DNA of 64,000 nt from Aequorivita capsosiphonis DSM 23843 (GTDB taxonomy: Bacteria; Bacteroidota; Bacteroidia; Flavobacteriales; Flavobacteriaceae). The stretch covers positions 119,903-183,902 of the forward strand of contig NZ_KE386849.1 in the NCBI RefSeq assembly GCF_000429125.1, written 5' to 3'. The first letter of the stretch is position 1; each line of letters opens with the position of its first letter. The notes below the pieces were generated by a model. It worked only from the letters and a program-made list of their open reading frames with translations, was not told the DNA's origin and did no database searches. Positions 3,876 through 55,308 of the stretch are shown here, piece by piece. The position numbers and the translations under genes are program-made.

Positions 3876-4508
3876 TTAGCGTAAGGAATTAAAACTATCG
3901 ATATAATTATCTGACTTTTCTTTTAAATCAGGGTTGTTAAACCCGAAAAAAGCAATATCGTTACCTTGGGCCGCCTCCAAGTCATTGATAGAATCCCCTA
4001 TCAAACAGACGTCCTTATTTTTGTATTCATATTTTTTTATGATATCTGCCACCAATTTATTTTTTGGCGTCGGGGAACCTTTGATAGTTTTAAAATAAGA
4101 ACGGATGTTTAATCCACTACATATTTTATTGAGTTCCTTTTCATCAGATCCAGAAACAATGTGGAACTTTTGGTTTTGGAAATTTTCTTTGATAAAATTT
4201 AAACTTTCCTCAATCAGGTATTTAGGGTTTATCAAATTTTCTAACATGATCTTCGAAAATCGGATGGCTAATTCTTGAACCTGCTTTTCGGAAACCGTTT
4301 CTCCTCTGATGTCTTCAAAAAAGTGGCGAAATTTAACAAAGCGCGATAGGCCGCCTTGTGCCCGATGGAATCTTAACAAACGCGCTACTTGCTCTGTAGG
4401 ATAATCTTTTAAAACCTGTTCAAAACCACTATCCCTGATGGGCATGGAGTCCATAATAACGCCATCAAAATCCCATAAAATGACACGATATTCAGTGAAG
4501 TGCTTCAT
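3876..4508 (-). CDS. HAD-superfamily phosphatase
   Basis: A 210-residue HAD hydrolase with a helical cap domain. Motif I is WDFDGVIMD (nucleophile Asp13, acid Asp15). Motif II is the Ser in HIVSGSDE, motif III is a Lys in PTPKNK, and motif IV is GDSINDLEAA. Such enzymes remove phosphate from small phosphosugars or cap-specific substrates. The gene overlaps the upstream CMP-sugar synthetase by 17 bases, so both probably act in one pathway, for example dephosphorylating an ulosonic acid phosphate before CMP activation. That role is an inference. A pyrophosphatase or phosphoglycolate-type activity cannot be excluded. Confidence 0.8.
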   Translation of the reverse strand: MKHFTEYRVILWDFDGVIMDSMPIRDSGFEQVLKDYPTEQVARLLRFHRAQGGLSRFVKFRHFFEDIRGETVSEKQVQELAIRFSKIMLENLINPKYLIEESLNFIKENFQNQKFHIVSGSDEKELNKICSGLNIRSYFKTIKGSPTPKNKLVADIIKKYEYKNKDVCLIGDSINDLEAAQGNDIAFFGFNNPDLKEKSDNYIDSFNSLR

Positions 4509-5175
4509 ATATTTTTGCTGCTGTATTAAAATCTTCCTCCCAATCTATATCCATACTTTCCAAGGAATTGAGTTCTAATAAATATGGATTTTTCCCGATG
4601 CGATCTTGCTGAGATAGATAATTTTCGTGACTATTAATAAAAATACCGCTGTTAACGGCATAAAGTGGGTTTAAGTCCTGCGTTCTTGGCCATTTAATTT
4701 GAGATCGGTCAAAATTAATTGCTGAATTTACATTTTTATCCCATAAGAACTCCTGGATTTTGGTTACGCTCATTAAGCTGTCGTAACCTTGGTTTAGGTA
4801 TTCTAAATATTTATCCAGTGCTTTTTGATATAATTCCGCAGTTATAAAAGGAGAGGTTACATGGGTCCAAATAATATGTTTGGCATCAGTAATTGTAGGG
4901 ATGTAGTTTATTAAATCTTGTAGATCTGTATTGGACTGTGAAAGTATTTCAGGACGCTCTATGATTTGGATACGCGGACTTGCAAAAGATTGAGCCAAGC
5001 CGATTGTTTTTGGATCATTGGTCGAAATTAAAATAGGAATATTGGGTACTTGTAAAAGTTGCTCTATTTTTAAGGAGACAAGCCCCCCTTGATACCCTGC
5101 AAATTGACGTGTGTTTTTATGTTTTATTCGCTCACTGCCTTTTCGGGTAGGTAAAAAGAAGGTAAAGTTTGACAT
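4492..5175 (-). CDS. CMP-ulosonate cytidylyltransferase (NeuA-like)
   Basis: A 227-residue nucleotidyltransferase of the acylneuraminate cytidylyltransferase family. The CTP-binding loop is PTRKGSERIKHKN at residues 9-21. HVTSPF at 105-110 matches the family's xxPTSPx segment. NSGIFI lies at 175-180, and MDIDWEEDF at 208-216 supplies the metal-binding aspartates (compare IDIDxxxDF in NeuA). It would form a CMP-activated nonulosonic or octulosonic acid. It sits between the aldolase fusion gene and the HAD phosphatase, away from the NeuB-type synthase, and is the second such enzyme in the cluster, which suggests a second acidic sugar. Confidence 0.8.
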   Translation of the reverse strand: MSNFTFFLPTRKGSERIKHKNTRQFAGYQGGLVSLKIEQLLQVPNIPILISTNDPKTIGLAQSFASPRIQIIERPEILSQSNTDLQDLINYIPTITDAKHIIWTHVTSPFITAELYQKALDKYLEYLNQGYDSLMSVTKIQEFLWDKNVNSAINFDRSQIKWPRTQDLNPLYAVNSGIFINSHENYLSQQDRIGKNPYLLELNSLESMDIDWEEDFNTAAKIYEALH

Positions 5176-5383
5176 CTAATTGTTTTTAACTATGCGATAA
5201 GTCCTTGTTAATTTTTTTCTAATTTAAAAACCATTCTTGTTCGGTTTAGTATTTTGAAATTTCTGTTAAGTTTCCTTTTCTCTGATAATTACAGATAAAC
5301 TAAATCTAGGTACCTCTCTGTTAGAGTTCTAGATACCTAATATAAAAGTCAGTTCTTCCTAATCTCAGAACAACGTTTCCTGT

Positions 5384-6919
5384 CTATTTTGATAGTCTAT
5401 AAAATAAATTATTATGAGTGATCAAATCATAGTGAGTCTTGGTGAGGGAAGAAAAGTCTGAGATAAATTCACTTAATTTTCTGAATAAATATTGATTCTC
5501 CTCAATCAACTCTATCTCTTTTTGAGTGATGATTTCAGGTTTATACCCATCATAACCAATCAAATAAAGATGCTCCGGTTTGCAGTTTAAAGCTATTTGC
5601 AATGCCAAGGTAGTGTGGGCATCGAAGTATTTATCGGTGAACCAAATTTTCTCCAATTCTTGGGTTTTATCTTTTATAGCATCTGGCACATAAGTTTCCA
5701 TTTTACGTGGAAAAGGTGGTACTATACAAACTCCATTGAAATGGGATAAATCTTTCAAAATAGTTTCCAATCGTCTGCCTTCGTTCCCTACCAGGCAAAA
5801 ATATTGTTTGTTTTTTAGGTTTTTGAAATAGCCTGCATTTTTAGCACTTGCATGAATAATAATGATATCAGGATTGTTTTCAACAAACCGTAAAATTCCG
5901 TCAATATGCTGGGCTATTGAACCACCACCACCTATTACAGTAACTTTATCTGTTTTTGGAAAGGAACAGACTGGAAATTTTTCATTGTTATTTGTTAAAT
6001 TCCTTTCATTTTTCAATCCTCGGATAACTGCATTTAAGGCGTAATAGCGCACCGTTGTCAATTCCATAACTTCTTTTTGGGGCAGAGAATAAGCACCCGA
6101 AATCATATAAGGCAGGCTGGTTCCCCAATTATATTTTTCTTTGAGAGGTTTAAAAGCCGTGACAGCTTTTTCTAATTCATTAAAATTAACTTCAAGATCA
6201 TTTTTTTGATTGAGGACTGTCAGTAACAATTCGGTTTTCAAATTTCCTGCACCACGTCCCATGCCCATGATTGTGCTGTCAATAAATTCCACCCCCAAGT
6301 CAATCGCCATCAAACTATTGAGCAAAGCGGCCTCTAAATTATTATGTCCATGAAAACCCAATTTGCAATCTAATTTGGATTTTAATAGCTTAATTGGTCC
6401 CTTTAATTCATTAGGTAAAATACTACCATAGGAATCTACCATATAAAGGACGTCAATTAATCCATTTAATTTTTCCAGGGAATTCATAAAGTTTTTATCG
6501 AATTTCCATTTTGATAAGTACATCAAATTAAAGCTGATTTCAAAACCATAAACTTTGATTTTCTTGACCAAATCAATAGCTCGATCCAGGTTTTCAGGCT
6601 TAATAGCCAATCGTATCATATCTACTAAGCCCACTAAAGGTTCGATTAAATCTGGAATGTCCTGCTCTTGAATATCATTTTCATTGAGAATGATAGCCAG
6701 TTTTTTATGTGTTTTATTTCTGATATCTCTTAACTCGTAGAGTGGTAAATAAAAGTATTTTCCATAATAGGAGTCTTGCAATGGACTGCGATAGCCCAGT
6801 TCAATGTAATCAACCGGTAATTTATTAAGTGCAAATATGTATTGGTCAACGACAGACTTGTCAAAGTCCCATTGGGTGTAGTAACCACCATCGCGTAAAG
6901 TACAGTCTAATATTTTCAT
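5384..6919 (-). CDS. DRE-TIM aldolase fused to a glycosyltransferase-like domain
   Basis: A 511-residue two-domain protein. Residues 1 to about 265 are a DRE-TIM metallolyase (HMGL-like) barrel: CTLRDGG at 6-12 provides the first catalytic segment, and HGHNN at 190-194 is the metal-binding HxHxN. The relatives best known for this fold include 4-hydroxy-2-oxovalerate aldolase, which joins or cleaves pyruvate and an aldehyde. Residues about 325-500 begin with a Rossmann-like VTVIGGGGSI and include ALNCKPEHLYLIGY at 443-456. The latter is very close to the motif-S region of the GT29-like protein in this cluster (ILNCKPKELYISGI), so I read it as a sialyltransferase/DUF115-like domain. Making an ulosonic acid by pyruvate condensation is a hypothesis. 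Confidence 0.75.
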   Translation of the reverse strand: MKILDCTLRDGGYYTQWDFDKSVVDQYIFALNKLPVDYIELGYRSPLQDSYYGKYFYLPLYELRDIRNKTHKKLAIILNENDIQEQDIPDLIEPLVGLVDMIRLAIKPENLDRAIDLVKKIKVYGFEISFNLMYLSKWKFDKNFMNSLEKLNGLIDVLYMVDSYGSILPNELKGPIKLLKSKLDCKLGFHGHNNLEAALLNSLMAIDLGVEFIDSTIMGMGRGAGNLKTELLLTVLNQKNDLEVNFNELEKAVTAFKPLKEKYNWGTSLPYMISGAYSLPQKEVMELTTVRYYALNAVIRGLKNERNLTNNNEKFPVCSFPKTDKVTVIGGGGSIAQHIDGILRFVENNPDIIIIHASAKNAGYFKNLKNKQYFCLVGNEGRRLETILKDLSHFNGVCIVPPFPRKMETYVPDAIKDKTQELEKIWFTDKYFDAHTTLALQIALNCKPEHLYLIGYDGYKPEIITQKEIELIEENQYLFRKLSEFISDFSSLTKTHYDLITHNNLFYRLSK

Positions 6920-43764: not shown

Positions 43765-46700
43765 CTAAAAATCAAAGCCCAATCCAAATGCAACGCGCGT
43801 ACTTTCTTTTGAATTGAATGCACTCACGTTGGCATGAAGCCCTCCAACTCCATCAATCCAAAAACCGCCACCAAAAGAATTGTGCCACTTTTTTGAAATA
43901 TTATCTTTTAGCCAAACTCTTCCTAAATCAGCACCTCCATATATCCCCATTTGAAAAGGTCTTACTCCAATTTTAAAAGATGGTAGGGTATATCTAAGAT
44001 CGGCATTTCCCACCAAAAAGGATTTTCCGGTAAAGCGTTGTTCCCTAAATCCACGTAAGCCATTGTCTCCTCCTAAGCTATTGGCTTGATAAAACTGATA
44101 ATTCTCTTGGAAATTAACTTGATAGCGGAGATTCGTTTTTAGTATTATCTTTCTGTTTTGGGTGAGTGTATTATAAAACCCAATCCGCGTTTTTAAAAAC
44201 CCGAAAGCCTTATCCATATTCTCCAAGTTATCCGTCACCCCCACTTTTAAATCGAACATCATCCCAACAGTAGGATTGACAGCGTCATCATAACTCCTAT
44301 AATTGTAGATTCCTTCTAAAGTGCCGTAATACGAAGTTTCCCCTTTATTCCATACAGGAACCGCTGATATAAAATTATTTGGTAGCTTATTTACTTCATA
44401 AGCATCAAATGAAGCCTGTAATTTAAAGAAACTACCAAAATTACTGTTGCGAAGCAAACCTAGATTCGCCGACATTTGCTGTACTTCTACCCTATTGTAA
44501 GAATAGCCTTCGGCAGCCTGCCAATTTTTTGTTTCATTACCATAGCCGAAAAAGTTTCTGGTGTAATTCGGACTTGTAAAACGGCCACCAAGACTCAGGT
44601 TTAAATTGTTAATTACATTAGCAAACTCTCCTTCATAAGTGACCTCAAAGCTATTGCGATCCGTAAAATAAGCAGCGTTAAACCTGTGTTGTTGCGAAAA
44701 AGGATTTCGTTGGTAGCTGTCCACTCTAAAAACATATTGAAGTGCCGCACGAAATCCATCATCGGGATTAAAGCCTATTGCCGAAACTAGGCCGTTGGAA
44801 CGTTCTAATTGTTTTCGATAATCGTAAACATTCAAGTTGTAAACATTTGTAAAGCGTAAATTGCCACCGTTTTTCTCTAAAACAGTATCATCCTTCTTTT
44901 CAAAATCATACACTTTTACGCGTTGGCCTTGCTTCAGCTCATAAACATCACTGCCTTGTCCGCCAATCAATCTTAGAAAGATTAAATTGTTTTCTTTTCC
45001 ATCAACAACAAATTTATCCTTTCCCGACAGCCCATAAATCCACAGCTCTTTGGTGTCTTTTGTTAAAAAAGTGCGGTCGATAAGTGTATCGGACTTTACT
45101 CCATTTATAATATTAAAGCTTCTAACGTTTGTTCTTCCTTCGGGCAAACGCGTTATTTCAAAAAGATCGTCATAGTCTGTTCCTACGATAGTCTGTAAAT
45201 AAGAAAGATACGTGTAATAGTTGTCTGCAATTTCAACCAGATTCTCCTTTCTCTCCTTCAATTTTCCCTTTATTTCTTCCAAAGATTCATCTTGCACTTC
45301 TTTAGGAATAGCATTAAAAGCTTTTTCTATCACTTCATCAGAAATGCTATCCTGCAATATTTTTGCAAGATATTTCCATTGGTTTCTGCCAGAGTTTCTT
45401 AATAAAGCCCTATCCAGAATAACTCCTTCTTTATTAAACCATGGTAGGTTCGTTAAGGTTTTGCCATAGACATGACTTTGTTTGGTTCCACTAAATAAGG
45501 ATCGGGTTATGTCTAGGATATTTCCTTCAAAACTTGAAAAAGCATTATCTCTGTTTGTTGGGATGGGAACAAATACATTCTTTTCTTGTAAATTTTTATA
45601 TTCAGCCCAACGCCAATGGTCAGGGCTACGATCCCAATTTCCTATTAGCATATCGAAGAGGCGTGATTTGATATAATTCTCTTCATCCACAAAAACATCA
45701 CCCGTTTTTCTAGTTTTTGTGAGAATATCATCCGTAGTTTCGACCTCATCTGGATATTTAAACAGTCCTTCCCCTTCGCTTTTCTCTGAAGGTTCAATTG
45801 AAATTAGATATAGTTCATCCCCATAATTTTCATTATAATTTCCGAGTGATTTTTGTTTGGGCACATAATAAAGCTCCGGGCTGGTATAAAAGATATCCAC
45901 TGCCTTCGCCATTTCAGGAATGGATAAAATTGCATAGGGATGTGTAGCGGTATAAAAGGTAAAATCCTGTCCTTTTATAGAAGAAACATCTACACTTTCA
46001 ACTTCAGAAGGCTTATTATCGTCATCTTCAAAAACGATTTGTTTTGAAATCTGAAGTGCCTTCTTGCCCATGGATCTCATTTGGTATCGATTGCCCTTTT
46101 TATCAATTAAAATAAGCGAGTTATAATCGGCAGCTTTATTTTCATATTTTACCTTTAAACCTCCAAACAAAGTATCTAAAGAAGCCACTTGAGCTTTAAC
46201 AGGTTGTGAGTAGGCATCTTTATACTTAGCGCCCCAAACGGTTTTAAAGAACAGAGCTTCCCTTATACTGTCTTGTTTATAGATGGGTACGGTGTATTCC
46301 TGCGGAAATATTTCAGGATATTTTGAAACATCCACGTTTTTTGGTGCGGGAATAACTTCCTTTTGAAAAATAAGCGCTGGTTTAAAGTTTTCTCCTTTAA
46401 CAAAATAACGCACCCAAGAAGAACCATCCTCAAAAACATCCAAAACCGCAAAACCTTGAGCCCCCGTACTGAAAAAGCCATCCTTTCCTGTTGCTGCGTA
46501 AGATTCCTTAGAACCTGCTCCAGAAACAATTTGATAAAATCCATCTTTTTCTATATACTGAAGATTGTGATCGTGACCCGAAACAAAAACCAATCGTTGA
46601 TTGTTTTTAGCCAACTTTTGCAACCTCAACATTAAATTATTGTAAAGCTCATTATACCTGTCCTGCACAGAAACGCCGCCTTGAGAGCGTATTTGGACTA

Positions 46701-47475
46701 CCAGTGAAGAAAGCCCTGGCAACGGAATTTTCTTCTGAAAAGGATATAAATGTTTTTCTAAGGCAAAATAGCCACCGTGGTTCCCATTGGTAAACATGGG
46801 ATGGTGCATGGCAAAAACAATCGTTTTGTTTTGGTTTTTTTCCAGTTCAAGGCCGAGGTCAATAAAGAATTTTTCACGCGTTTTTATATCACAGCCTTGG
46901 TTTATACTCGGATTTTTGTTCCAGTCTTCCAAAAACCACTGGGTATCAATAATAAGCAATTGGATATTATCAGAAACATTTATACTCTCCAAAGGACAAC
47001 CATTGCTGGGTTTAAAAGCATCTTGATCTGGAAATTGAGCTTCCACATAATTCTCTTCCCTAGCAACGCCCAAAACGCCTCCATTATACCATTCGTGGTT
47101 TCCGGGAATGAAAATAGTATGACCCTTGTAATCCTTGACCGCAGTATGCTGCGCATCTATCATGTTTTCAGATTGCTTGCGACGCGGATGATCTTCGGGA
47201 TCCATTCCGGCGGGATAAATATTATCACCTAAGAAAATTGTGTAATTCCCTGTAGTTTTCTGTGTTTTAAGGTAGCCCTTAAAGGTCGTTAAAGCATCGC
47301 TCATTCCACCCATTGGCGAAAGTCCTGCATCGCCTACCAGATAAAAGGTTTTTTCTATTTTCTTAGATGAAGGGTAAATTGGGTTGGCTTCCTTATCCTT
47401 AAACTGAGGTGCAAAAGTGGCACAAGAGCTTAGCACGAAAACTAATAGTAAGAAATAATACTTTTTAAAAATCAT
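43765..47475 (-). CDS. Lipoprotein: phosphoesterase - kinase-like segment - Omp85 barrel (active-site copy)
   Basis: A 1236-residue fusion. The lipoprotein signal ends at Cys18 (VLSSCATF). A calcineurin-like phosphoesterase covers about residues 40-360 with every metal-ligand motif: GDAG, LGDNIYPAG, PGNHEW, MHHPMF and SGHDHNLQ. A middle region, about 390-700, resembles HipA/Fam20C-type kinases (YQMRSMGKKA, MLIGNWDRSPDHWRW, PIPTNRDNAFSSF). A C-terminal Omp85/BamA-like barrel carries the loop motif GLRGFREQRF. The phosphoesterase should be active; the kinase-like call is only by motif. The following tandem gene is its paralogue. Confidence 0.75.
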   Translation of the reverse strand: MIFKKYYFLLLVFVLSSCATFAPQFKDKEANPIYPSSKKIEKTFYLVGDAGLSPMGGMSDALTTFKGYLKTQKTTGNYTIFLGDNIYPAGMDPEDHPRRKQSENMIDAQHTAVKDYKGHTIFIPGNHEWYNGGVLGVAREENYVEAQFPDQDAFKPSNGCPLESINVSDNIQLLIIDTQWFLEDWNKNPSINQGCDIKTREKFFIDLGLELEKNQNKTIVFAMHHPMFTNGNHGGYFALEKHLYPFQKKIPLPGLSSLVVQIRSQGGVSVQDRYNELYNNLMLRLQKLAKNNQRLVFVSGHDHNLQYIEKDGFYQIVSGAGSKESYAATGKDGFFSTGAQGFAVLDVFEDGSSWVRYFVKGENFKPALIFQKEVIPAPKNVDVSKYPEIFPQEYTVPIYKQDSIREALFFKTVWGAKYKDAYSQPVKAQVASLDTLFGGLKVKYENKAADYNSLILIDKKGNRYQMRSMGKKALQISKQIVFEDDDNKPSEVESVDVSSIKGQDFTFYTATHPYAILSIPEMAKAVDIFYTSPELYYVPKQKSLGNYNENYGDELYLISIEPSEKSEGEGLFKYPDEVETTDDILTKTRKTGDVFVDEENYIKSRLFDMLIGNWDRSPDHWRWAEYKNLQEKNVFVPIPTNRDNAFSSFEGNILDITRSLFSGTKQSHVYGKTLTNLPWFNKEGVILDRALLRNSGRNQWKYLAKILQDSISDEVIEKAFNAIPKEVQDESLEEIKGKLKERKENLVEIADNYYTYLSYLQTIVGTDYDDLFEITRLPEGRTNVRSFNIINGVKSDTLIDRTFLTKDTKELWIYGLSGKDKFVVDGKENNLIFLRLIGGQGSDVYELKQGQRVKVYDFEKKDDTVLEKNGGNLRFTNVYNLNVYDYRKQLERSNGLVSAIGFNPDDGFRAALQYVFRVDSYQRNPFSQQHRFNAAYFTDRNSFEVTYEGEFANVINNLNLSLGGRFTSPNYTRNFFGYGNETKNWQAAEGYSYNRVEVQQMSANLGLLRNSNFGSFFKLQASFDAYEVNKLPNNFISAVPVWNKGETSYYGTLEGIYNYRSYDDAVNPTVGMMFDLKVGVTDNLENMDKAFGFLKTRIGFYNTLTQNRKIILKTNLRYQVNFQENYQFYQANSLGGDNGLRGFREQRFTGKSFLVGNADLRYTLPSFKIGVRPFQMGIYGGADLGRVWLKDNISKKWHNSFGGGFWIDGVGGLHANVSAFNSKESTRVAFGLGFDF

Positions 47476-47513
47476 AAATCCGGTTCTCTACTAACTTAAG
47501 GGAAATAATTGAA

Positions 47514-47579
47514 ACTCCAAATGACAAGCACCAAACTCCAAATAAATTCCAAAAACAAATGACAAATTCCAAATAACAA
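47514..47579. repeat. Heptad array (ATTCCAA/ATGACAA family)
   Basis: Consecutive CAA-ending heptads (ACTCCAA, ATGACAA, GCACCAA, ACTCCAA, later ATTCCAA, ATGACAA, ATTCCAA, ATAACAA) with two indels. Confidence 0.7.
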
Positions 47580-47655
47580 CAAATTTCAAAAATATCAAAC
47601 AACAAATCGATTTCATCTTCTTCTACTGGTACAAGCCTAAAGATTTTTCATTTTT

Positions 47656-47697
47656 GACCATTGAACATTGAAAATTGAGTATTGAGTATTGAAAATC
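47656..47697. repeat. Heptad array (GAGTATT family)
   Basis: Six in-register heptads: GACCATT, GAACATT, GAAAATT, GAGTATT, GAGTATT and GAAAATC. Confidence 0.75.
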
Positions 47698-47710
47698 GAA
47701 TTCTTCATAT

Positions 47711-47745
47711 GTCTTAAGTCCCAATCTCATCTCTCACGTCTCACC
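47711..47745. repeat. Heptad array (TCTCACG family)
   Basis: Heptads GTCTTAA, GTCCCAA, TCTCATC, TCTCACG and TCTCACC, ending just before the stop codon of the gene to the right. Confidence 0.65.
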
Positions 47746-47752
47746 TCTAAAA

Positions 47753-50700
47753 TTACATCGAAACCTTAACTCCAAATGTAAACCGCAGGCCTTCATCGCC
47801 GGTGAAAAGGTTGAGTGTTCCGCTCAATAGATCGGCAGTGTTTATCCAAAGTCCTCCCCCGTAGGAATCATGCCAAGCATCGGAAGTATCATTTGGAACC
47901 CATACCCTTCCTATATCATAACCACCAAAAACACCTATTTGAATAGGCGTTAATGCGGTTCGGAATTTATTGAAACTGTATCGTAAATCTACTCCTCCAA
48001 CGGCAGCGGTTCTTCCAGTAAAACGTTCTTTTCGATAGCTGCGCAGTCCAGTATCGCTTCCCAATTGCGCGCCTTGATAAAACTCATAGTTGTTACCAAT
48101 ATTAAACTGACCTTGAACATCTGTTTTTAAAACCAGTTTACGGTTTCTGGTTAGCGCATTGTAAAATATGATTTCAGGTTTTATATATCCAAAAACGCGC
48201 TCGCTATCTTGAACGTTTTGAGTGGCTCCAGCTACAAGACTAAAATCCATTCCTCGCGTTGGATTCACCTTATTATCATAACTCTCATATTGATATTTTC
48301 CTTCCACAGTAGCAAAATATTGTGTTTCGTCCAATTCTGTAAAACTTGGAGTTAGATCTGTAATAAACCTGTCTGGGGTACCTTCCACTTTAATCCCTTC
48401 AAAGCTAGCTTTAAACTGAAACATACTTCCATAAGGCGAGTCCTTTTTAATACCTATGGAACCTCCGTAGCCTCCAATACGAACCCGATTGTAATCTTTA
48501 CCAATATCAAATTCATAATCTGGATTGAAGGTTTCATTTCCGAAGCCAAAGTAGTTTTCAGAAAAATTCGGGTTTTTAAAATAGCCACCTATCAAAAAGT
48601 TCCAACTTCCGAAGATGTTGGCAAACTCTCCTTCGTATGCAGCAATCAAACTATTGGTCGCAAAAAAATAACCCAGTGCCAGCCTGTGTTGTTGCGAAAA
48701 AGGATTACGTTGAAAACCATTTACAGTATACACGTCCGAAATACCTATTTTAAATCCATCATCAGGATTGTAACCCAATGCCGGCAACAATAGATTTACC
48801 GATTGAATCTGTTTTTTAGTATCGTAGGTGTTTAAATCATAGTTATCAGTAAATCTGAAAGCCGCGCCACCTTTTTCCTCGACGGTATTCTTTTTACTCT
48901 TTTGATCGTACACCTTTATTTTTCTTCCGTTTGCAATTTTATAAACGTCGTTGTTTTGCCCACCGATTATACGAATGAAGATTGGATTATTTCCTTTTCC
49001 CTTCACTTCAAAAACATCATCGTCATCTAAACCATATACCCAGATTTCTTTGGTTTCCTTTGCATAAAAGGTTCGATCCACCATCATCACTCCTTTTTCA
49101 CCATTTTTAATTCTATACGTCTTGATATTCGTTTTTCCATCAGACAAACGCATTATTTCGAAATAATCATCTTTATTGGTTCCCGTTACTATTTGAAGTT
49201 TGGCAAGATAATCGTAATATTCGCCTGCTATTTTCACAATATTATCTCTTCTTCCCTTGAGTTTTTGCATTATTTCAGCCGCTGTTTCATCTTGGACTTC
49301 CTTGGGAAGATCTTTAAACGCGTCATCTACAACAGCATCGGTAATGGATTTTTGAATAATCGCTGCTTCTTCTAACCATGCATCTTTTCCGTAGTTTTGA
49401 ATCAGAGCATGATCCAGTTTTATTCCTGCTGAATTAAACCACTTGGTGTTTTTAAGCTCTGCTCCGTACACTTGAAATTGTCTAGAGGTATTGAACAGCG
49501 TTCGCACCACATCCAACAAGCCGCCATCAAAGTTTGAATAAACTTGATCCCTATCTCGAGGGATGGGCTCAAAAGTAACACTGCCATCTTCATTGTCGTG
49601 TTGGGTAAAGCGCCATTGATCGTTGTGTCGATCCCAATCGCCTATCAACATATCAAAAATTCTAGCTCGGATAAATGCCTTTTCGTTTAACTGATACTTT
49701 TCATCTTTATGCAATTTTTCCAAAAGGTCATCTGTACTTTCTACATTGTCAGGATAGTCAAATGTTTCTCCTTTAAAATTTTTATCCGGTCGTTCCACGA
49801 TCATATAAAGTGCATCTCCATAATTTTTATTAAACGTACCCAAGGCTTTTTGTTTTGGCACATAAAAGAGTTTTGGATTTGTGTGAAGAATATCCGCAGC
49901 GCCCGCCAATTTAGGAATGGTAAACGCTCCGTACGGATGTGCCGCAGTATAAAAATCGAGAATCAAATCTTCGGGGATGGTATTTTTAAAATCGTTTTCA
50001 ACTTCCTTGTTTTTTAAAATCACATTCTGAAGAAACTGCACCGCACTTTTTTTCATGGCGCGCATATTATAGGTTTTTCCATCTTTATCTTCCAATCGCA
50101 ACGATCGCGTTTGATGTCCGCCACCAGCTCTAACCACGTGCAAACCTCCATATAAAGTATCTAAAAGAACCGTTTTTGCGGTAACATCGATTCCATAAAC
50201 TTTTCGATAGTGTTCTCCCCAAACTGTTTTATAAAAACCTGTTTTCTCAACCATATCATCGCTATAGATTTTCGCCTTAACTGTTTTGGGTAAATTTTCG
50301 TGAAGTGTAGAAAAGTCATAACCTTGTTCCGCAGGAAAAACTTCCTTTTGAAAAAGTAACTCTGAAGCGCCATTATCATCAGCTTTAAAAAAACGAACAT
50401 CAGACAATCCATCTTTCCCTATATCCAATCTTGCAAAACCTTCTTCGCCAGCAACAAATTGACCATATTGTCCAAGTGAAGCTGCCGTAGCCCCAGAGCC
50501 TGATCCGGAAACAATTTGCTTTACAACCCCTTCTTCGTTATACTGTAAAGATTTGTCGAGTCCTGAAACAAAAACAAGTCGGTCCAGATCTTTTGTGAGT
50601 ACTTTTAAGCGATCCATAAGTTCGTTATAGCGCTCATTGTAACGATCCTGCTTTGAGATTGCGCCTTGAATTTTTATTTGCTTAATAAACGTACTGAAAA

Positions 50701-51430
50701 AATCTTTGTGAATTAAAGGATATTTGCCGCCATGCTCTCCATAAGTTATCAATGGATGATACATAGCCACAATAATGGTCTTTGTTGCATTTTTCTTTAA
50801 TTCGCTTTCAATTTCGGTGAAGAATTTATCGCGGGTTTTTATTTGGCATTTCTTATTCATTTTGGGATAAGCGTCCCAATCTTCCAAAAACCACTGCGTA
50901 TCTATGGTGAGCAAATAAATATCATCATTTATATCAATGCCTTCCAAGGCACAACCATTATTGGGCTGCAAAACATCGGCATCGTCAAAGCGAGCTTTTA
51001 AGAAGTCTTCCTCGAGTTCTAAACCATCTACCCCGCTCTTCCAGTCGCGGTTTCCAGGGAGAACCACCACTTTTCCTTTAAAATCTTTTAAAGCATCTAT
51101 CTGAAGCTGCATGGAGTTTTGGGCCTTTTGTTTGGCCTTATCGTCTTTTGGCTGCATTCCTGAAGGGTAGAAACTATTTCCCAAAAACAATACGTAACTA
51201 TCCTTAGAATTATTTTCAGAAATATAATTTCCAAGGGATTTCATTGATTTTGAAGCTTCCGCCTCGGCATTCCCCGCGTTTCCGATTAGGTAAAATGTTT
51301 TATCAATGGATTTTTTTGAAAGTTCTTTAGAAGGCTCCCCTTGGTTGGTTCTGTACTGGGGCTGGTAGCTTGCGCAGGCAGAAAGAATGGCGGCTGACAC
51401 AAAAGTTATAAAGATGTTAATTTTATTCAT
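47753..51430 (-). CDS. Lipoprotein: degenerate phosphoesterase - kinase-like - Omp85 barrel
   Basis: A 1225-residue paralogue of the downstream gene with the same architecture: lipobox LSACASY (Cys19), phosphoesterase-like domain, middle kinase-like segment, barrel. Its phosphoesterase has lost its metal ligands: GNAG for GDAG, LGNSFYP for LGDNIYP, GNRD for GNHE, MYHP for MHHP, and GLDKS for GHDHN. The kinase-like site, in contrast, is more canonical (MLIGDWDRHNDQWRF, then PIPRDRDQVYSNF). The Omp85 loop reads LRSYRKERF. It is probably a pseudo-phosphoesterase with a structural, regulatory or kinase role. It lies 52 bases from the divergent HD-PycTM gene. Confidence 0.75.
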   Translation of the reverse strand: MNKINIFITFVSAAILSACASYQPQYRTNQGEPSKELSKKSIDKTFYLIGNAGNAEAEASKSMKSLGNYISENNSKDSYVLFLGNSFYPSGMQPKDDKAKQKAQNSMQLQIDALKDFKGKVVVLPGNRDWKSGVDGLELEEDFLKARFDDADVLQPNNGCALEGIDINDDIYLLTIDTQWFLEDWDAYPKMNKKCQIKTRDKFFTEIESELKKNATKTIIVAMYHPLITYGEHGGKYPLIHKDFFSTFIKQIKIQGAISKQDRYNERYNELMDRLKVLTKDLDRLVFVSGLDKSLQYNEEGVVKQIVSGSGSGATAASLGQYGQFVAGEEGFARLDIGKDGLSDVRFFKADDNGASELLFQKEVFPAEQGYDFSTLHENLPKTVKAKIYSDDMVEKTGFYKTVWGEHYRKVYGIDVTAKTVLLDTLYGGLHVVRAGGGHQTRSLRLEDKDGKTYNMRAMKKSAVQFLQNVILKNKEVENDFKNTIPEDLILDFYTAAHPYGAFTIPKLAGAADILHTNPKLFYVPKQKALGTFNKNYGDALYMIVERPDKNFKGETFDYPDNVESTDDLLEKLHKDEKYQLNEKAFIRARIFDMLIGDWDRHNDQWRFTQHDNEDGSVTFEPIPRDRDQVYSNFDGGLLDVVRTLFNTSRQFQVYGAELKNTKWFNSAGIKLDHALIQNYGKDAWLEEAAIIQKSITDAVVDDAFKDLPKEVQDETAAEIMQKLKGRRDNIVKIAGEYYDYLAKLQIVTGTNKDDYFEIMRLSDGKTNIKTYRIKNGEKGVMMVDRTFYAKETKEIWVYGLDDDDVFEVKGKGNNPIFIRIIGGQNNDVYKIANGRKIKVYDQKSKKNTVEEKGGAAFRFTDNYDLNTYDTKKQIQSVNLLLPALGYNPDDGFKIGISDVYTVNGFQRNPFSQQHRLALGYFFATNSLIAAYEGEFANIFGSWNFLIGGYFKNPNFSENYFGFGNETFNPDYEFDIGKDYNRVRIGGYGGSIGIKKDSPYGSMFQFKASFEGIKVEGTPDRFITDLTPSFTELDETQYFATVEGKYQYESYDNKVNPTRGMDFSLVAGATQNVQDSERVFGYIKPEIIFYNALTRNRKLVLKTDVQGQFNIGNNYEFYQGAQLGSDTGLRSYRKERFTGRTAAVGGVDLRYSFNKFRTALTPIQIGVFGGYDIGRVWVPNDTSDAWHDSYGGGLWINTADLLSGTLNLFTGDEGLRFTFGVKVSM

Positions 51431-51482: not shown

Positions 51483-52667
51483 ATGAGCGACATTGTTCAA
51501 GCTGCCGATGATTTTATCTTCCAACTTTTTAAAGATGAGCTTCCGAATACCTTTGTGTATCATAATTACACACATTCAAAGCGTGTTTATAAAAGTATAA
51601 ATGAAATCATTGAAAACTCCCAAATTGATGTTAAAGATGCGACTATCCTGCGTTTAGCAGCTTTACTACACGATACAGGCTATACAATTTCACGTAAGAA
51701 GCATGAAGAGGAAGGGGTGAAAATTGCCACTGAATTTCTTGAAGAACACGATGTAGAAAAAGATATTATTGAGGGGGTAAACAGGTGTATTCTCGCCACA
51801 AAATTTAAGGATACGGTTCCAAATTCGGAGCTTGAAAAAATAATCCGCGATGCCGATTCTTCCCATTTTGGGAAAGATTATTTTGAAGAGGCTAGTGAGT
51901 TTTTAAGACAAGAATATCTTTTTCAGAATGTTCACAATTATACTTCTGAGGAATGGTTAGACGAAAACATAAAAGTATTAGTTGAAGAACATCAATATTA
52001 TACAGATTATGCCTTAAAGAATTGGCAACCAGTTAAAGAAGAAAACTTAGCCAAACTTCTGAAAAACCGTAAAAAGAATAAACAAAAACTACAAAAGGAA
52101 AAGGTAAAAGCACAATTAAAGGCCAAATATAAAGACGGTAGCCCTGAACGTGGAATACAGACTTTTTATCGCACTGCGCTTAGAAACCATATGAAACTGA
52201 GTGATATAGCAGACACCAAAGCCAACATCATGCTTTCGGTAAATGCAATTATCATCTCCTTGGTTCTCTCTAATCTTATTTCAAAATTGGACAACAACAA
52301 TTATCTAATTGTCCCTACGGCCATTTTCATCCTTTTTAGTGCAATAACCATGATTTTGGCGGTAATTGCAACAAGACCCAATGTTACCCGAGGCGAGTTT
52401 ACCAAAGAAGATGTTGAAAATAAAACTGTTAATCTTACTTTCTTCGGAAACTTTCATAGCATGGAACTCGAACAATTTGAATGGGCTATTGAAGAGCTTT
52501 TAAAAGATAGAGATTACGTTTACAAGGCACTTACCAAAGATTTATATTTTTTAGGAAAGGTCTTGGATAGAAAATACCGAATATTACGGCTTACCTACAC
52601 CATCTTCGTAGCCGGAACCATAATCTCTTTACTGTCCTTTGCGATATTCTTTTATTTGGAAATGTAA
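51483..52667 (+). CDS. HD phosphohydrolase fused to a Pycsar-type membrane effector domain
   Basis: A 394-residue fusion. Residues 1-185 form an HD domain: His31, LLHDTGY (His63-Asp64), His74, and DAD at 123-125. A Lys-rich linker (188-218) leads to a PycTM-like domain with TM helices near 249-267, 274-296 and 370-392 and the conserved start RNHMKLSDIADTKANIML. PycTM proteins are membrane effectors in cyclic-pyrimidine-nucleotide (Pycsar) defence, where a partner cyclase makes the signal. No cyclase gene lies nearby, so this is an orphan. The HD domain might degrade a nucleotide messenger. The family is also common outside defence in Bacteroidota. Confidence 0.8.
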   Translation: MSDIVQAADDFIFQLFKDELPNTFVYHNYTHSKRVYKSINEIIENSQIDVKDATILRLAALLHDTGYTISRKKHEEEGVKIATEFLEEHDVEKDIIEGVNRCILATKFKDTVPNSELEKIIRDADSSHFGKDYFEEASEFLRQEYLFQNVHNYTSEEWLDENIKVLVEEHQYYTDYALKNWQPVKEENLAKLLKNRKKNKQKLQKEKVKAQLKAKYKDGSPERGIQTFYRTALRNHMKLSDIADTKANIMLSVNAIIISLVLSNLISKLDNNNYLIVPTAIFILFSAITMILAVIATRPNVTRGEFTKEDVENKTVNLTFFGNFHSMELEQFEWAIEELLKDRDYVYKALTKDLYFLGKVLDRKYRILRLTYTIFVAGTIISLLSFAIFFYLEM

Positions 52668-52947: not shown

Positions 52948-55308
52948 TTAAATTTGGGCCATCAAATCTTCGTAGGTATAATATTCCTTGGTTTTTTCGT
53001 TGTTTTTTGAATATAGAACTTTCACGCGTAAGGCTTTAAGGCCGGTAACACCCTGCAAGTCTTCCAATTCCAACATTTCTATTTCATTTCCAAGCAATTT
53101 CTTGTGTTGTAGAAATGAAATGTATTTCAAATATTCTTCTTCATCTTCCTTTTGGGAATAGATAATCGCCACTTTCCCGGGTTGGGTAATGCGTTCCTGG
53201 GTATTTTTTATATGCGCCTTATCAACACGTTTTTTCACTACTTCATAACGGGCATTGTAAGTGCCATCAACATCAAAACGCTTTTCGTCCATTCTAAAAC
53301 GCAAAGATAACGAGCCATTGAAAGCTAGTATCATGGAGGCTACATCCAGTTTTATTGGGAGTTTATCTTTAAGATGAAAATAACTGTTCTCCATTTCGCA
53401 GACCACTTGAAGCTGCCAGAGCTTCAAATTGTTAAGGTAAATTTTGTTGAAAGAACGGTCCTGGGTAATACTTTCGCCAATATAAAGGTTGTGTTCCACA
53501 CCATCCGTTTTAAAGCGTTCAAAATAATGAGGATACATTTCCTGTGCTTCCTGCTGCTTTTTGTCCATAATGGAAGCGAGCTTTTTATTGATGATCATCA
53601 CGCTTTCGTCATAATCTTTTCGGTGTTTATAAACGAAGCCGGTATTAGAGTCTATTAGTTCATTGTATTCATCTACTAAATTCTTATAGACCTCATCTCT
53701 TTCTCTAATATATTTAAAAAACGGGATAATTTCCGAAGTTAAAAAATTCATTATATTTTTTTCGGTGTCTACTTGAAGGTTTTCTTCTATATCATCCAAA
53801 AATTTGGCGATACTAAATTTCATCTGTTCCAATATAGGAAGTGGACTGTGGTTCATTAATTTCTCCAAAATCCCTCCAATATAAGTCAATTGGAGCGTAA
53901 GGTCTTTTTTTATGGCCTCGTTTCTCGCTTCGGAAGACCCCTTAATATCCGTCTGACCGTAAAGTGGATGTACATCTGCAAAAACAACCTCCCTGAAAAT
54001 GGTAGGGTTTCCTGCAGTTATTGAATTCAAATAGCGTTTGGCTTCCTTTCTAAACTTCCAGTGAACACTGCTATGCAAAGCGGTGCACTCTTCTTGGATT
54101 ATAAGTTCCAATTCGTTTTCGAGATTTTGCTTTGAACGTACTACGGTATCAATTACGAAAGGCATAATATCTCGCAGCTTGTTTGCATTAATCGTGTTTA
54201 ACGCATTGGCTTCTTCTGAAACAAGTTCTAAGACGCCTAAGATTTTACCTTCATAAATTATTGCTGCTAAAATGGCACTCTTTATTCCTTGATCGAGCAT
54301 TTTTTTATAAAGCAAATTATCGGGATATAACTTGTGATAGCGTTCCGAATCTGTTACACAATAAAACTGCTTTTGCTTAAAAATGGTATAATAGGAAGCG
54401 CTACAAAGCGCTTCTTTACTGGCCTGTGATTTTTCTCCATTTAAGAGAAAGCTATCAACTTCTTTAAACAACACCCGCTCAAAATTCTCTGTTTCTTCGT
54501 TGTAGTCAGTAAACCCAACCTTTAAGTTCTTTAAATTGAAAATAGAACGGAAGATGTCGTTAAACTCCGTATTGTAGAAGTCGCCATTTTTTTCAAGACG
54601 CAGTAAATTCGTTTTAAAGTTGGAAATGGAGACATTCATGGTAACATCTATAAGCGTCGCAATAACGAAACCATTAAAAATCCAACTTTTAGGCGGAAAT
54701 TTTTCTTTCCAAACAGAAACATCTTCAAAACTTTCCAAGAGCTCATTGATATCTTTCTCTGTGATATCTTTTGCTTTTGCAGTTTTTTGGATCTCAACAA
54801 AATCGGCGTTGTAGAGGAGGCTATAATTCCGAATCATTCCTCGAGAATCTGGAATGTTATAATAATAGGAACGTCGGAAATCTACCTTTTTCCCATAATA
54901 ATGACTTAAAATAAGACTACACCCCATGATGTAGAATTCATCTTCGTCAAAATTAATAATATTGAGTGGGAAGTCATTCCCGGCGGCTTTCATAATACTT
55001 TTGTAGCGTTCGGTACTTTTAAATGACACTTCTTGATAAGGAATGGTCGCAAATTTTATTTCATTATTCTGTAATACCGAAGGAAATAATGGAGAAAGAA
55101 CAATATCGATCTGTTCTTGATATGCATCCAAGTCGTCAAAATCTGTTATACCTGATGATAAAATAGGGTAATCTTTTTCAACTGAAAATATTTCAGAATA
55201 CCAACTTTTATCAATTCCACTCTTCGCAATCTCCTCCCTATAGGCATCAAAAACTTTTTTGAGGCCTATTCTGGTTTCTAATGGGAAATCATTTTTCACT
55301 TCTTTCAT
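52948..55308 (-). CDS. GAF-domain protein
   Basis: A 786-residue cytoplasmic protein, the large Bacteroidota type with a central GAF domain. The GAF region is about residues 240-400 (KVGFTDYNEE, IYEGKILGVLELVSEEA). The flanking parts are alpha-rich with no TM helix and no output domain I recognise. Such GAF domains often sense small molecules or nucleotides. It ends 281 bases from the end of the convergent HD-PycTM gene and starts divergently from the TlpA-like gene. A link to the HD-PycTM protein is not shown by the sequence. Confidence 0.7.
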   Translation of the reverse strand: MKEVKNDFPLETRIGLKKVFDAYREEIAKSGIDKSWYSEIFSVEKDYPILSSGITDFDDLDAYQEQIDIVLSPLFPSVLQNNEIKFATIPYQEVSFKSTERYKSIMKAAGNDFPLNIINFDEDEFYIMGCSLILSHYYGKKVDFRRSYYYNIPDSRGMIRNYSLLYNADFVEIQKTAKAKDITEKDINELLESFEDVSVWKEKFPPKSWIFNGFVIATLIDVTMNVSISNFKTNLLRLEKNGDFYNTEFNDIFRSIFNLKNLKVGFTDYNEETENFERVLFKEVDSFLLNGEKSQASKEALCSASYYTIFKQKQFYCVTDSERYHKLYPDNLLYKKMLDQGIKSAILAAIIYEGKILGVLELVSEEANALNTINANKLRDIMPFVIDTVVRSKQNLENELELIIQEECTALHSSVHWKFRKEAKRYLNSITAGNPTIFREVVFADVHPLYGQTDIKGSSEARNEAIKKDLTLQLTYIGGILEKLMNHSPLPILEQMKFSIAKFLDDIEENLQVDTEKNIMNFLTSEIIPFFKYIRERDEVYKNLVDEYNELIDSNTGFVYKHRKDYDESVMIINKKLASIMDKKQQEAQEMYPHYFERFKTDGVEHNLYIGESITQDRSFNKIYLNNLKLWQLQVVCEMENSYFHLKDKLPIKLDVASMILAFNGSLSLRFRMDEKRFDVDGTYNARYEVVKKRVDKAHIKNTQERITQPGKVAIIYSQKEDEEEYLKYISFLQHKKLLGNEIEMLELEDLQGVTGLKALRVKVLYSKNNEKTKEYYTYEDLMAQI

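Follow-up and report, generated by a model that had tools for sequence, protein, structure and literature searches.

We examined a 64,000-nucleotide stretch of the Aequorivita capsosiphonis DSM 23843 genome (the window) that holds two tandem paralogous genes, here called copy 2 and copy 1. Each encodes a predicted lipoprotein in which a phosphoesterase-fold domain, a kinase-like domain and a C-terminal Omp85-type barrel follow one another, and the two copies have split in their site residues: copy 1 retains the phosphatase site and copy 2 the kinase-like site (Table 1). A first-pass annotation, made from the sequence alone, had described two paralogues of about 1,230 residues at these positions; the open reading frames are 1236 and 1225 residues long, and the five phosphoesterase motifs and both kinase-loop strings that it quoted were read as given in both copies. 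The copies are 45-46% identical over nearly their full length, and a search of the source genome (4.04 Mb, 26 contigs) returned no further family match. Of 582 relatives, the 80 best were kept, representing 79 distinct loci; among these the closest to the pair are from Aequorivita, at 74-80% protein identity. Clades A and B, which contain copy 2 and copy 1, respectively, and a third clade, C, occur in the tandem orders A-B, A-B-C or B-C in a sample of loci selected for tandem appearance rather than at random. The A and B genes lie on the same strand; the gap between them ranges from -1 to 66 bp at 15 loci of relatives, and in the window it is 277 bp.

Table 1. Features of the tandem pair, its neighbors and related loci. 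L numbers mark loci of relatives.
Feature	Position	Strand	Remark
Copy 2, whole gene (clade A; putative pseudo-phosphatase / kinase-like / Omp85 lipoprotein)	47753..51430	-	1225 aa; first gene of the tandem
Copy 2 phosphoesterase-fold domain, ~residues 44-365	50336..51301	-	2/8 scored positions kept; GAP50 (3tgh) is the best non-barrel match listed for the full model
Copy 2 kinase-like domain, ~residues 380-745	49196..50293	-	predicted structure; no Pfam family
Copy 2 glycine loop, G436-G438, between two strands	50117..50128	-	candidate nucleotide loop, putative role
Copy 2 loop D600-R-H-N-D-Q-W606	49613..49633	-	candidate catalytic loop, putative role
Copy 2 P624-R-D-R-D-Q629	49544..49561	-	candidate metal Asp, putative role
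Copy 2 C-terminal Omp85-type barrel, ~residues 876-1225	47756..48805	-	16 long strands in the model, counted manually
Copy 1, whole gene (clade B; predicted phosphatase / degenerate kinase-like / Omp85 lipoprotein)	43765..47475	-	1236 aa; second gene of the tandem
Copy 1 phosphoesterase domain, ~residues 44-375	46351..47346	-	8/8 scored positions kept
Copy 1 kinase-like domain, ~residues 390-757	45205..46308	-	placed by alignment; 3/7 motif positions kept (DRSHTND)
Copy 1 degenerate catalytic loop NWDRSPDHW	45613..45639	-	read from sequence
Copy 1 C-terminal Omp85-type barrel, ~residues 890-1236	43768..44808	-	placed by alignment; NCBIfam match below cut-off
HD domain + PycTM (Pycsar-effector-type) membrane domain	51483..52667	+	divergent from copy 2; conserved neighbor
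786-aa protein	52948..55308	-	GAF match below cut-off, E 0.0079; conserved near the HD-PycTM gene
Stand-alone 423-aa kinase-like proteins	L082:2882-4153; L083:2839-4110; L084:2939-4210		genomes of the same family, fusion also present
Kinase-like, phosphoesterase and Omp85 as three adjacent genes	L086:3051-7097		unfused version
Degenerate kinase-like-Omp85 copy	L092:1476-4115		in tandem with an intact copy at 4123-6690
Polyphosphate kinase 1 beside family gene	L190:3683-14086; L191:5370-15769; L091:6-5478; L095:946-8409		distant relatives

Domain architecture of the two copies

The Pfam Metallophos family matched copy 1 only (E 1.8e-6, 29 bits against a cut-off of 21.5), and copy 2 gave no Pfam phosphoesterase match at E values up to 1. 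Purple acid phosphatases carry the ligand set GDxG, GDxxY, GNH(D/E), VxxH and GHxH. This set is complete in copy 1, which keeps all eight scored positions (DDYNHHHH), and fails in copy 2, which reads NNYNRYLK there. The solved sequences closest to copy 1 were tartrate-resistant acid phosphatases, by a weak match (phmmer E 0.0024, ~35 residues). Real phosphatase activity is considered likely.

For copy 2, a middle segment of 506 aa was modeled using AlphaFold2 with an alignment of 90 rows, and the model reached a pLDDT of 86.9 and a pTM of 0.88. Every Foldseek match at E ≤0.001 (n = 10) was a kinase fold, comprising five chains of Fam20-type Golgi casein kinases (4kqa and 4kqb; E 9.8e-5 to 8.9e-4), Rio2, PI4KII-alpha (4hnd), two chains of STK33, and COQ8A. 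HipT (7ab3) followed as the eleventh match at E 1.1e-3, and the Foldseek probability was 1.00 for PI4KII-alpha and 0.98 for the HipA/HipT kinase. The Fam20C/HipA-like character first proposed for this region is supported by the copy 2 model, and the concern that it might not fold as a kinase did not materialize. Of the suggested structural comparisons, those with Fam20 and HipT yielded matches; CotH was not among the 50 structural matches listed and was set aside. Pfam placed the middle domain of neither copy in any family, NCBIfam likewise gave none, and in the eight of ten examined relatives that hold the domain only unrelated matches below cut-off were found there.

Residues conserved in the family are K461, D600-R601-H602-x-D604-Q605-W606 and P624-R-D-R-D628, together with the glycine loop at 436-438. 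Placed by secondary structure alone, K461, the D600 loop, D626 and the glycine loop would correspond to the ion-pair lysine, catalytic loop, metal-binding aspartate and nucleotide loop of a kinase, respectively. The kinase-like domain also occurs without the phosphatase, either stand-alone, in proteins of 423 aa with an N-terminal hydrophobic segment and in others of 498-570 aa, or joined to the barrel in proteins of 854-918 aa. One relative encodes the three parts as adjacent genes, and in another an intact kinase-like-Omp85 gene has a degenerate tandem neighbor of the same architecture, possibly a further pseudokinase (Table 1). As a separate observation, residues 578-733 of copy 2 (~49232-49699, minus strand) gave a weak PADLOC match to the defense candidate PDC-M03A (E 5.9e-6).

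At the C-terminus of both copies, NCBIfam detected Omp85 below its curated cut-off (58 of 200 bits). A model of copy 2 residues 22-1221 (pLDDT 87.4, pTM 0.85) had the barrels of BamA and TamA as its best Foldseek matches, with TM-scores by target of up to 0.76, in agreement with the barrel named in the first-pass annotation; the top non-barrel match among the 50 listed was Plasmodium GAP50 (3tgh). Neither copy had a Pfam match to POTRA, which is weak evidence as Pfam missed the barrel too, or to patatin. Between model residues ~724 and 839 the copy 2 model contains strands only.

Both proteins have a lipobox near the N-terminus (LSSC-ATF and LSAC-ASY), and the pattern was found in 144 of the 171 proteins of the first survey described below (27 were without). 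In Bacteroidota, surface lipoproteins have been described as carrying an acidic export signal directly after the lipidated cysteine (PMC5080379). At positions +2 to +6, none of the 144 had two or more acidic residues, 34 had one and 110 had none; in a small control counted by eye, three of three SusD proteins of the source genome had at least two there. Since the acidic surface-export signal is absent, the lipid anchor and the two enzyme domains are all predicted to face the periplasm. Of the earlier proposal of a phosphatase and a kinase-like partner on the cell surface, the split is supported as far as site residues go, and the surface location is not supported.

Reciprocal loss of sites across the family

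The family is common: a match, with weak and partial matches included, was found in 251 of 298 family-level and 72 of 148 phylum-level genomes. Each full-length protein was scored at eight phosphatase and seven kinase-like positions. Proteins classed as phosphatase-dead had ≤5/8 phosphatase positions with a 7/7 kinase-like motif, and those classed as kinase-degenerate had ≤5/7 kinase-like positions with an 8/8 phosphatase. Identical cores were merged and open reading frames under 1000-1100 aa were excluded. The first survey comprised 172 distinct full-length proteins, one of which (L118, with a reading frame that starts within the phosphoesterase domain) was later dropped as an artefact and is left out of the tree test, the rate comparison, the invariant analysis and the counts that follow. 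Among 210 distinct proteins, 132 retain both sites, 54 the kinase-like site only, 23 the phosphatase only and one neither.

On a tree built from the barrel only, in which several deep branches between clades are weakly supported, the phosphatase state changed eight times and the kinase-like state three times. The clade of copy 2 consists of 16 proteins, each of which is full-length, lacks an intact phosphatase site and keeps the kinase-like motif at 7/7; that of copy 1 consists of 22 proteins, all kinase-degenerate; and clade C consists of 14 proteins that are phosphatase-dead as in copy 2. Kinase-like loss in phosphatase-intact copies occurred at least twice on the tree, once in the clade of 22 and once in genome G063. 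Because the degenerate clades sit among lineages with both sites, we infer that the losses are derived and that the ancestor had both sites; counts alone cannot separate gain from loss.

A further test used 30 genomes of the bacterial family with two earlier matches each. Counted were the 21 with at least two full copies, whose second copies had previously been unread; seven of the remaining nine had one full copy and two had split pieces only, and a third, partial copy of G060 was left out. Four first copies were already in the set (those of G116 and G123 are L016 and L019), so that these 43 copies and the 171 of the first survey merge to 210. In 21 of 21 genomes exactly one copy had all eight phosphatase positions, and the remaining full copies (22/22) had 0-5 of 8 phosphatase positions together with a 7/7 kinase-like motif. 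The phosphatase-intact copies of G060 and G063 were without the kinase-like motif, the former falling inside the clade of copy 1 and the latter being a separate loss. As a control, the best copy was read in 20 genomes with a single full copy, and both sites were present in all 20 (L247 was misaligned by the script and intact by eye), single-copy status in 15 of these 20 genomes resting on a scan that scored two candidates per genome.

The survey across genomes that the first-pass annotation had recommended thus shows the split to recur. It also disposes of local decay as an account of copy 2, since its whole clade is phosphatase-dead; the refuting condition named in that annotation, an intact second copy in other genomes, did not hold. 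Ordinary, functionally meaningless decay of one local copy, for which the missing Pfam phosphoesterase match of copy 2 might speak, is very improbable given 16 of 16 full-length clade members with a dead phosphatase and an entire kinase-like motif.

Constraint on the separate domains

Divergence in the phosphoesterase domain was divided by that in the kinase-like domain, with 95% confidence intervals (CI) from a column bootstrap; the groups were hand-picked except for the kinase-degenerate group B. The ratio was 1.81 (95% CI 1.52-2.19) in clade A (11 proteins), 2.21 (1.84-2.67) in clade C (9 proteins), 0.71 (0.59-0.84) in the kinase-degenerate copies (21 proteins) and 1.27 (1.06-1.51) in single copies (13 proteins).

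Invariant positions were compared among 193 nearer proteins, an analysis that is partly circular, since scored positions define the groups. In the kinase-degenerate copies, 10 of 32 kinase-domain invariants were kept in less than 70% (R409, G436-G438, D492, H602, D604, Q605, D626 and D635), of which R409, the glycine loop, D492, D604 and D635 were lost though not used in defining the group. In the phosphatase-dead copies, 13 of 51 phosphatase invariants were kept in less than half; six of these are scored positions (D49, D84, Y87, N126, H127 and H303) and the other seven are N85, G90, Y130, H233, P251, R263 and K323. Barrel invariants were kept (≥70%) at 32 of 34 positions in each degenerate group. 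Among six Aequorivita copy 2 orthologues, dN was 0.155 in the dead phosphatase domain versus 0.139 in the kinase-like part; dS was saturated, leaving dN/dS mostly uninformative.

Discussion

The computation supports a predicted fold and domain order, a loss of sites that is reciprocal and has happened repeatedly, and a difference in constraint between the two domains. We propose, with a probability of about 0.6, that the products form an envelope pair with two opposed phosphate modules, whose work was divided after duplication and which may share a substrate and form a complex. An outer-membrane lipoprotein would carry both a phosphoesterase of the purple acid phosphatase type and a kinase domain of an atypical, Fam20/PI4K/HipA-like kind, with a POTRA-less Omp85 barrel holding the two modules at the membrane. 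Starting from an ancestor with both sites, duplication would have divided the work such that copy 1 kept the phosphatase and became a pseudokinase, while copy 2 kept the kinase-like site and became a pseudophosphatase. Most likely the two copies would share a target in the envelope, on which they would probably act as a complex, much as pseudokinase Fam20A does with kinase Fam20C. We lean towards real phosphotransfer by the kinase-like domain.

Several observations weigh against this proposal. Modest TM-scores were obtained for Fam20, PI4KII-alpha and HipT among the top eleven matches, at 0.24-0.32 by query and 0.28-0.44 by target, so that the result is a fold assignment and not one of close homology. 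A 90-sequence profile of the middle domain searched against the PDB at E values up to 10 returned no kinase, the sole match being an esterase at E 0.37. In one case, the divergent protein L094, neither site remains. A paired tree test of linked change had no power: among six independent pairs, five showed no difference in the second trait and the sole informative one changed in the same direction, opposing reciprocity. Finally, the periplasm and cell surface are not known to contain ATP, so a kinase there would need an unusual donor. A bolder version of the proposal supposes reversible phosphorylation built into the outer membrane on its periplasmic face: a Fam20-like kinase would draw on polyphosphate or another envelope donor instead of ATP, a paired phosphatase would oppose it, and duplication would repeatedly have separated the two activities into pseudophosphatase-kinase and phosphatase-pseudokinase partners; we regard this version as speculative and rather unlikely.

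The alternatives overlap with one another and with the proposed reading, and their odds need not sum to one. The first is subfunctionalization without a shared pathway, in which extra copies are kept for their kinase-like domain and barrel, one phosphatase per cell is enough, and the dead domain is a structural spacer. The excess of phosphatase over kinase-like state changes on the barrel tree, the phosphatase-intact copy in all 21 genomes, and the kinase-only and kinase-Omp85 relatives, which indicate that the kinase-like part can live without a phosphatase, would all suit it. Division has nevertheless gone both ways, with the kinase-like site lost at least twice in phosphatase-intact copies (clade B and G063), and the dN values above, read with the saturated dS in mind, make the dead domain nearly as constrained as the kinase-like part. 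We consider this account a serious one, if improbable.

A second alternative, which we likewise treat as a serious but doubtful contender, is that the middle domain is another transferase, or a ligand-binding sensor acting on the barrel; its ligand would be phosphate or polyphosphate. It would remove the difficulty of a periplasm in which ATP is not expected, and it draws on the position of polyphosphate kinase 1 (PPK1): in at least 17 of 37 non-Flavobacteriales genomes with the kinase-like domain, PPK1 and the family gene are no more than 13 kb apart. These genomes span five families, with 12 of the 17 in one. A PPK1 match is present in 136 of 148 phylum-level genomes, so co-occurrence says little and only position is informative. 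Against a direct link, the PPK1 matches of the source genome are on other contigs, and four of the 72 family-match genomes (G026, G095, G370 and G373) have no PPK1 match, the first three of them holding the kinase-like domain. Among the recurrently lost invariants, moreover, are residues that a kinase active site would be expected to have, which tells against a non-kinase role.

The third alternative is secretion of the type Vd kind, in which the enzyme domains would reach the surface through the barrel, as in PlpD, and act on external substrates. Its attraction lies in the C-terminal Omp85 barrel with an enzyme ahead of it, as described for PlpD; the lack of a POTRA match in Pfam and of a surface-export signal, and the N-terminal lipobox, make it quite unlikely.

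Returning to the proposed envelope pair, several points make it of interest. A kinase-like site this strongly conserved would not be expected at the outer membrane, away from the cytoplasm and its ATP. The reciprocal site loss amounts to a natural dissection, showing which domain each copy keeps and giving clean comparisons. A testable role is also gained for the 'Metallo' subfamily of Omp85 proteins discussed below, whose function was left open in 2014. The division of sites between duplicated copies suggests a possible phosphorylation system in the cell envelope.

Comparison with known systems

Heinz and Lithgow (2014; PMC4104836) described a 'Metallo' Omp85 subfamily combining PF00149 and Omp85. 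They took the domain for a metalloprotease and considered periplasmic proteolysis or virulence, without settling on a function. The present proteins resemble it in having a PF00149 domain ahead of an Omp85 barrel and no POTRA match, with copy 1 qualifying for PF00149 by Pfam and copy 2 only by fold and ancestry. They differ in their kinase-like middle and paired degenerate copies, neither of which appears in the paper's description as far as it was available; the words 'kinase' and 'calcineurin' do not occur in its main text. The first-pass annotation knew of no such fusion in the literature. Its PF00149-Omp85 part is in print; no paper on the kinase-like domain in these proteins appeared in listings of the open-access PMC literature. 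In the main text of PMC12611786, which describes the BAM complex of Flavobacterium johnsoniae, the words phosphoesterase and kinase do not occur.

Pairing of a functional kinase with an inactive paralogue has its nearest parallel in Fam20C and Fam20A, the latter a pseudokinase that complexes with Fam20C and raises its activity (PMC4421793). The likeness lies in the kinase fold, which is the top structural match, and in the pairing of an active kinase with a degenerate paralogue. No sequence relationship was found, however, and here the setting is the bacterial outer membrane, with fusion to a phosphatase and a barrel. The Fam20A-Fam20C complex has been demonstrated, whereas a complex of copy 1 with copy 2 is only proposed.

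PI4KII-alpha and HipA/HipT share the atypical kinase fold with the middle of copy 2, which differs from them in having no match to a Pfam kinase family. PI4K and HipA are cytoplasmic. Copy 1, with all eight scored positions, resembles purple acid phosphatases of the TRAP/ACP5 type, although both copies are membrane-anchored fusions and copy 2 keeps only two of the eight. The structural match of copy 2 to GAP50 (3tgh, titled a membrane anchor) is to a phosphatase-fold protein without a known enzyme role, which is eukaryotic and is not known to have a kinase-like or barrel domain. PlpD, a type Vd patatin-Omp85 protein, likewise has an enzyme domain ahead of an Omp85 barrel; the present proteins differ in having no patatin or POTRA match and no surface signal.

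Gene neighborhood

The HD-PycTM gene that diverges from copy 2 (Table 1) is the only PycTM match of the source genome and is present in 75 of 80 loci (79 relatives plus the window). The nearby 786-aa gene is present in 66 of the 80 and also occurs at a number of loci from other families. When 20 additional loci, each spanning at most 19.5 kb, were inspected, a relative of the HD-PycTM gene was found in six of six from Flavobacteriales and eight of 14 from outside the order, three of these eight (L183, L184 and L197) by partial match. Two of the loci with PPK1 beside the family gene (L190 and L191) have the order HD-PycTM, PPK1, family gene, GAF-like gene. An exopolyphosphatase-like gene, below the NCBIfam cut-off, was seen in L094. 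Downstream of the family genes and on the opposite strand, 46 of the 80 loci contain relatives of a 303-aa putative lipoprotein (L105:16528-17439) with no NCBIfam match.

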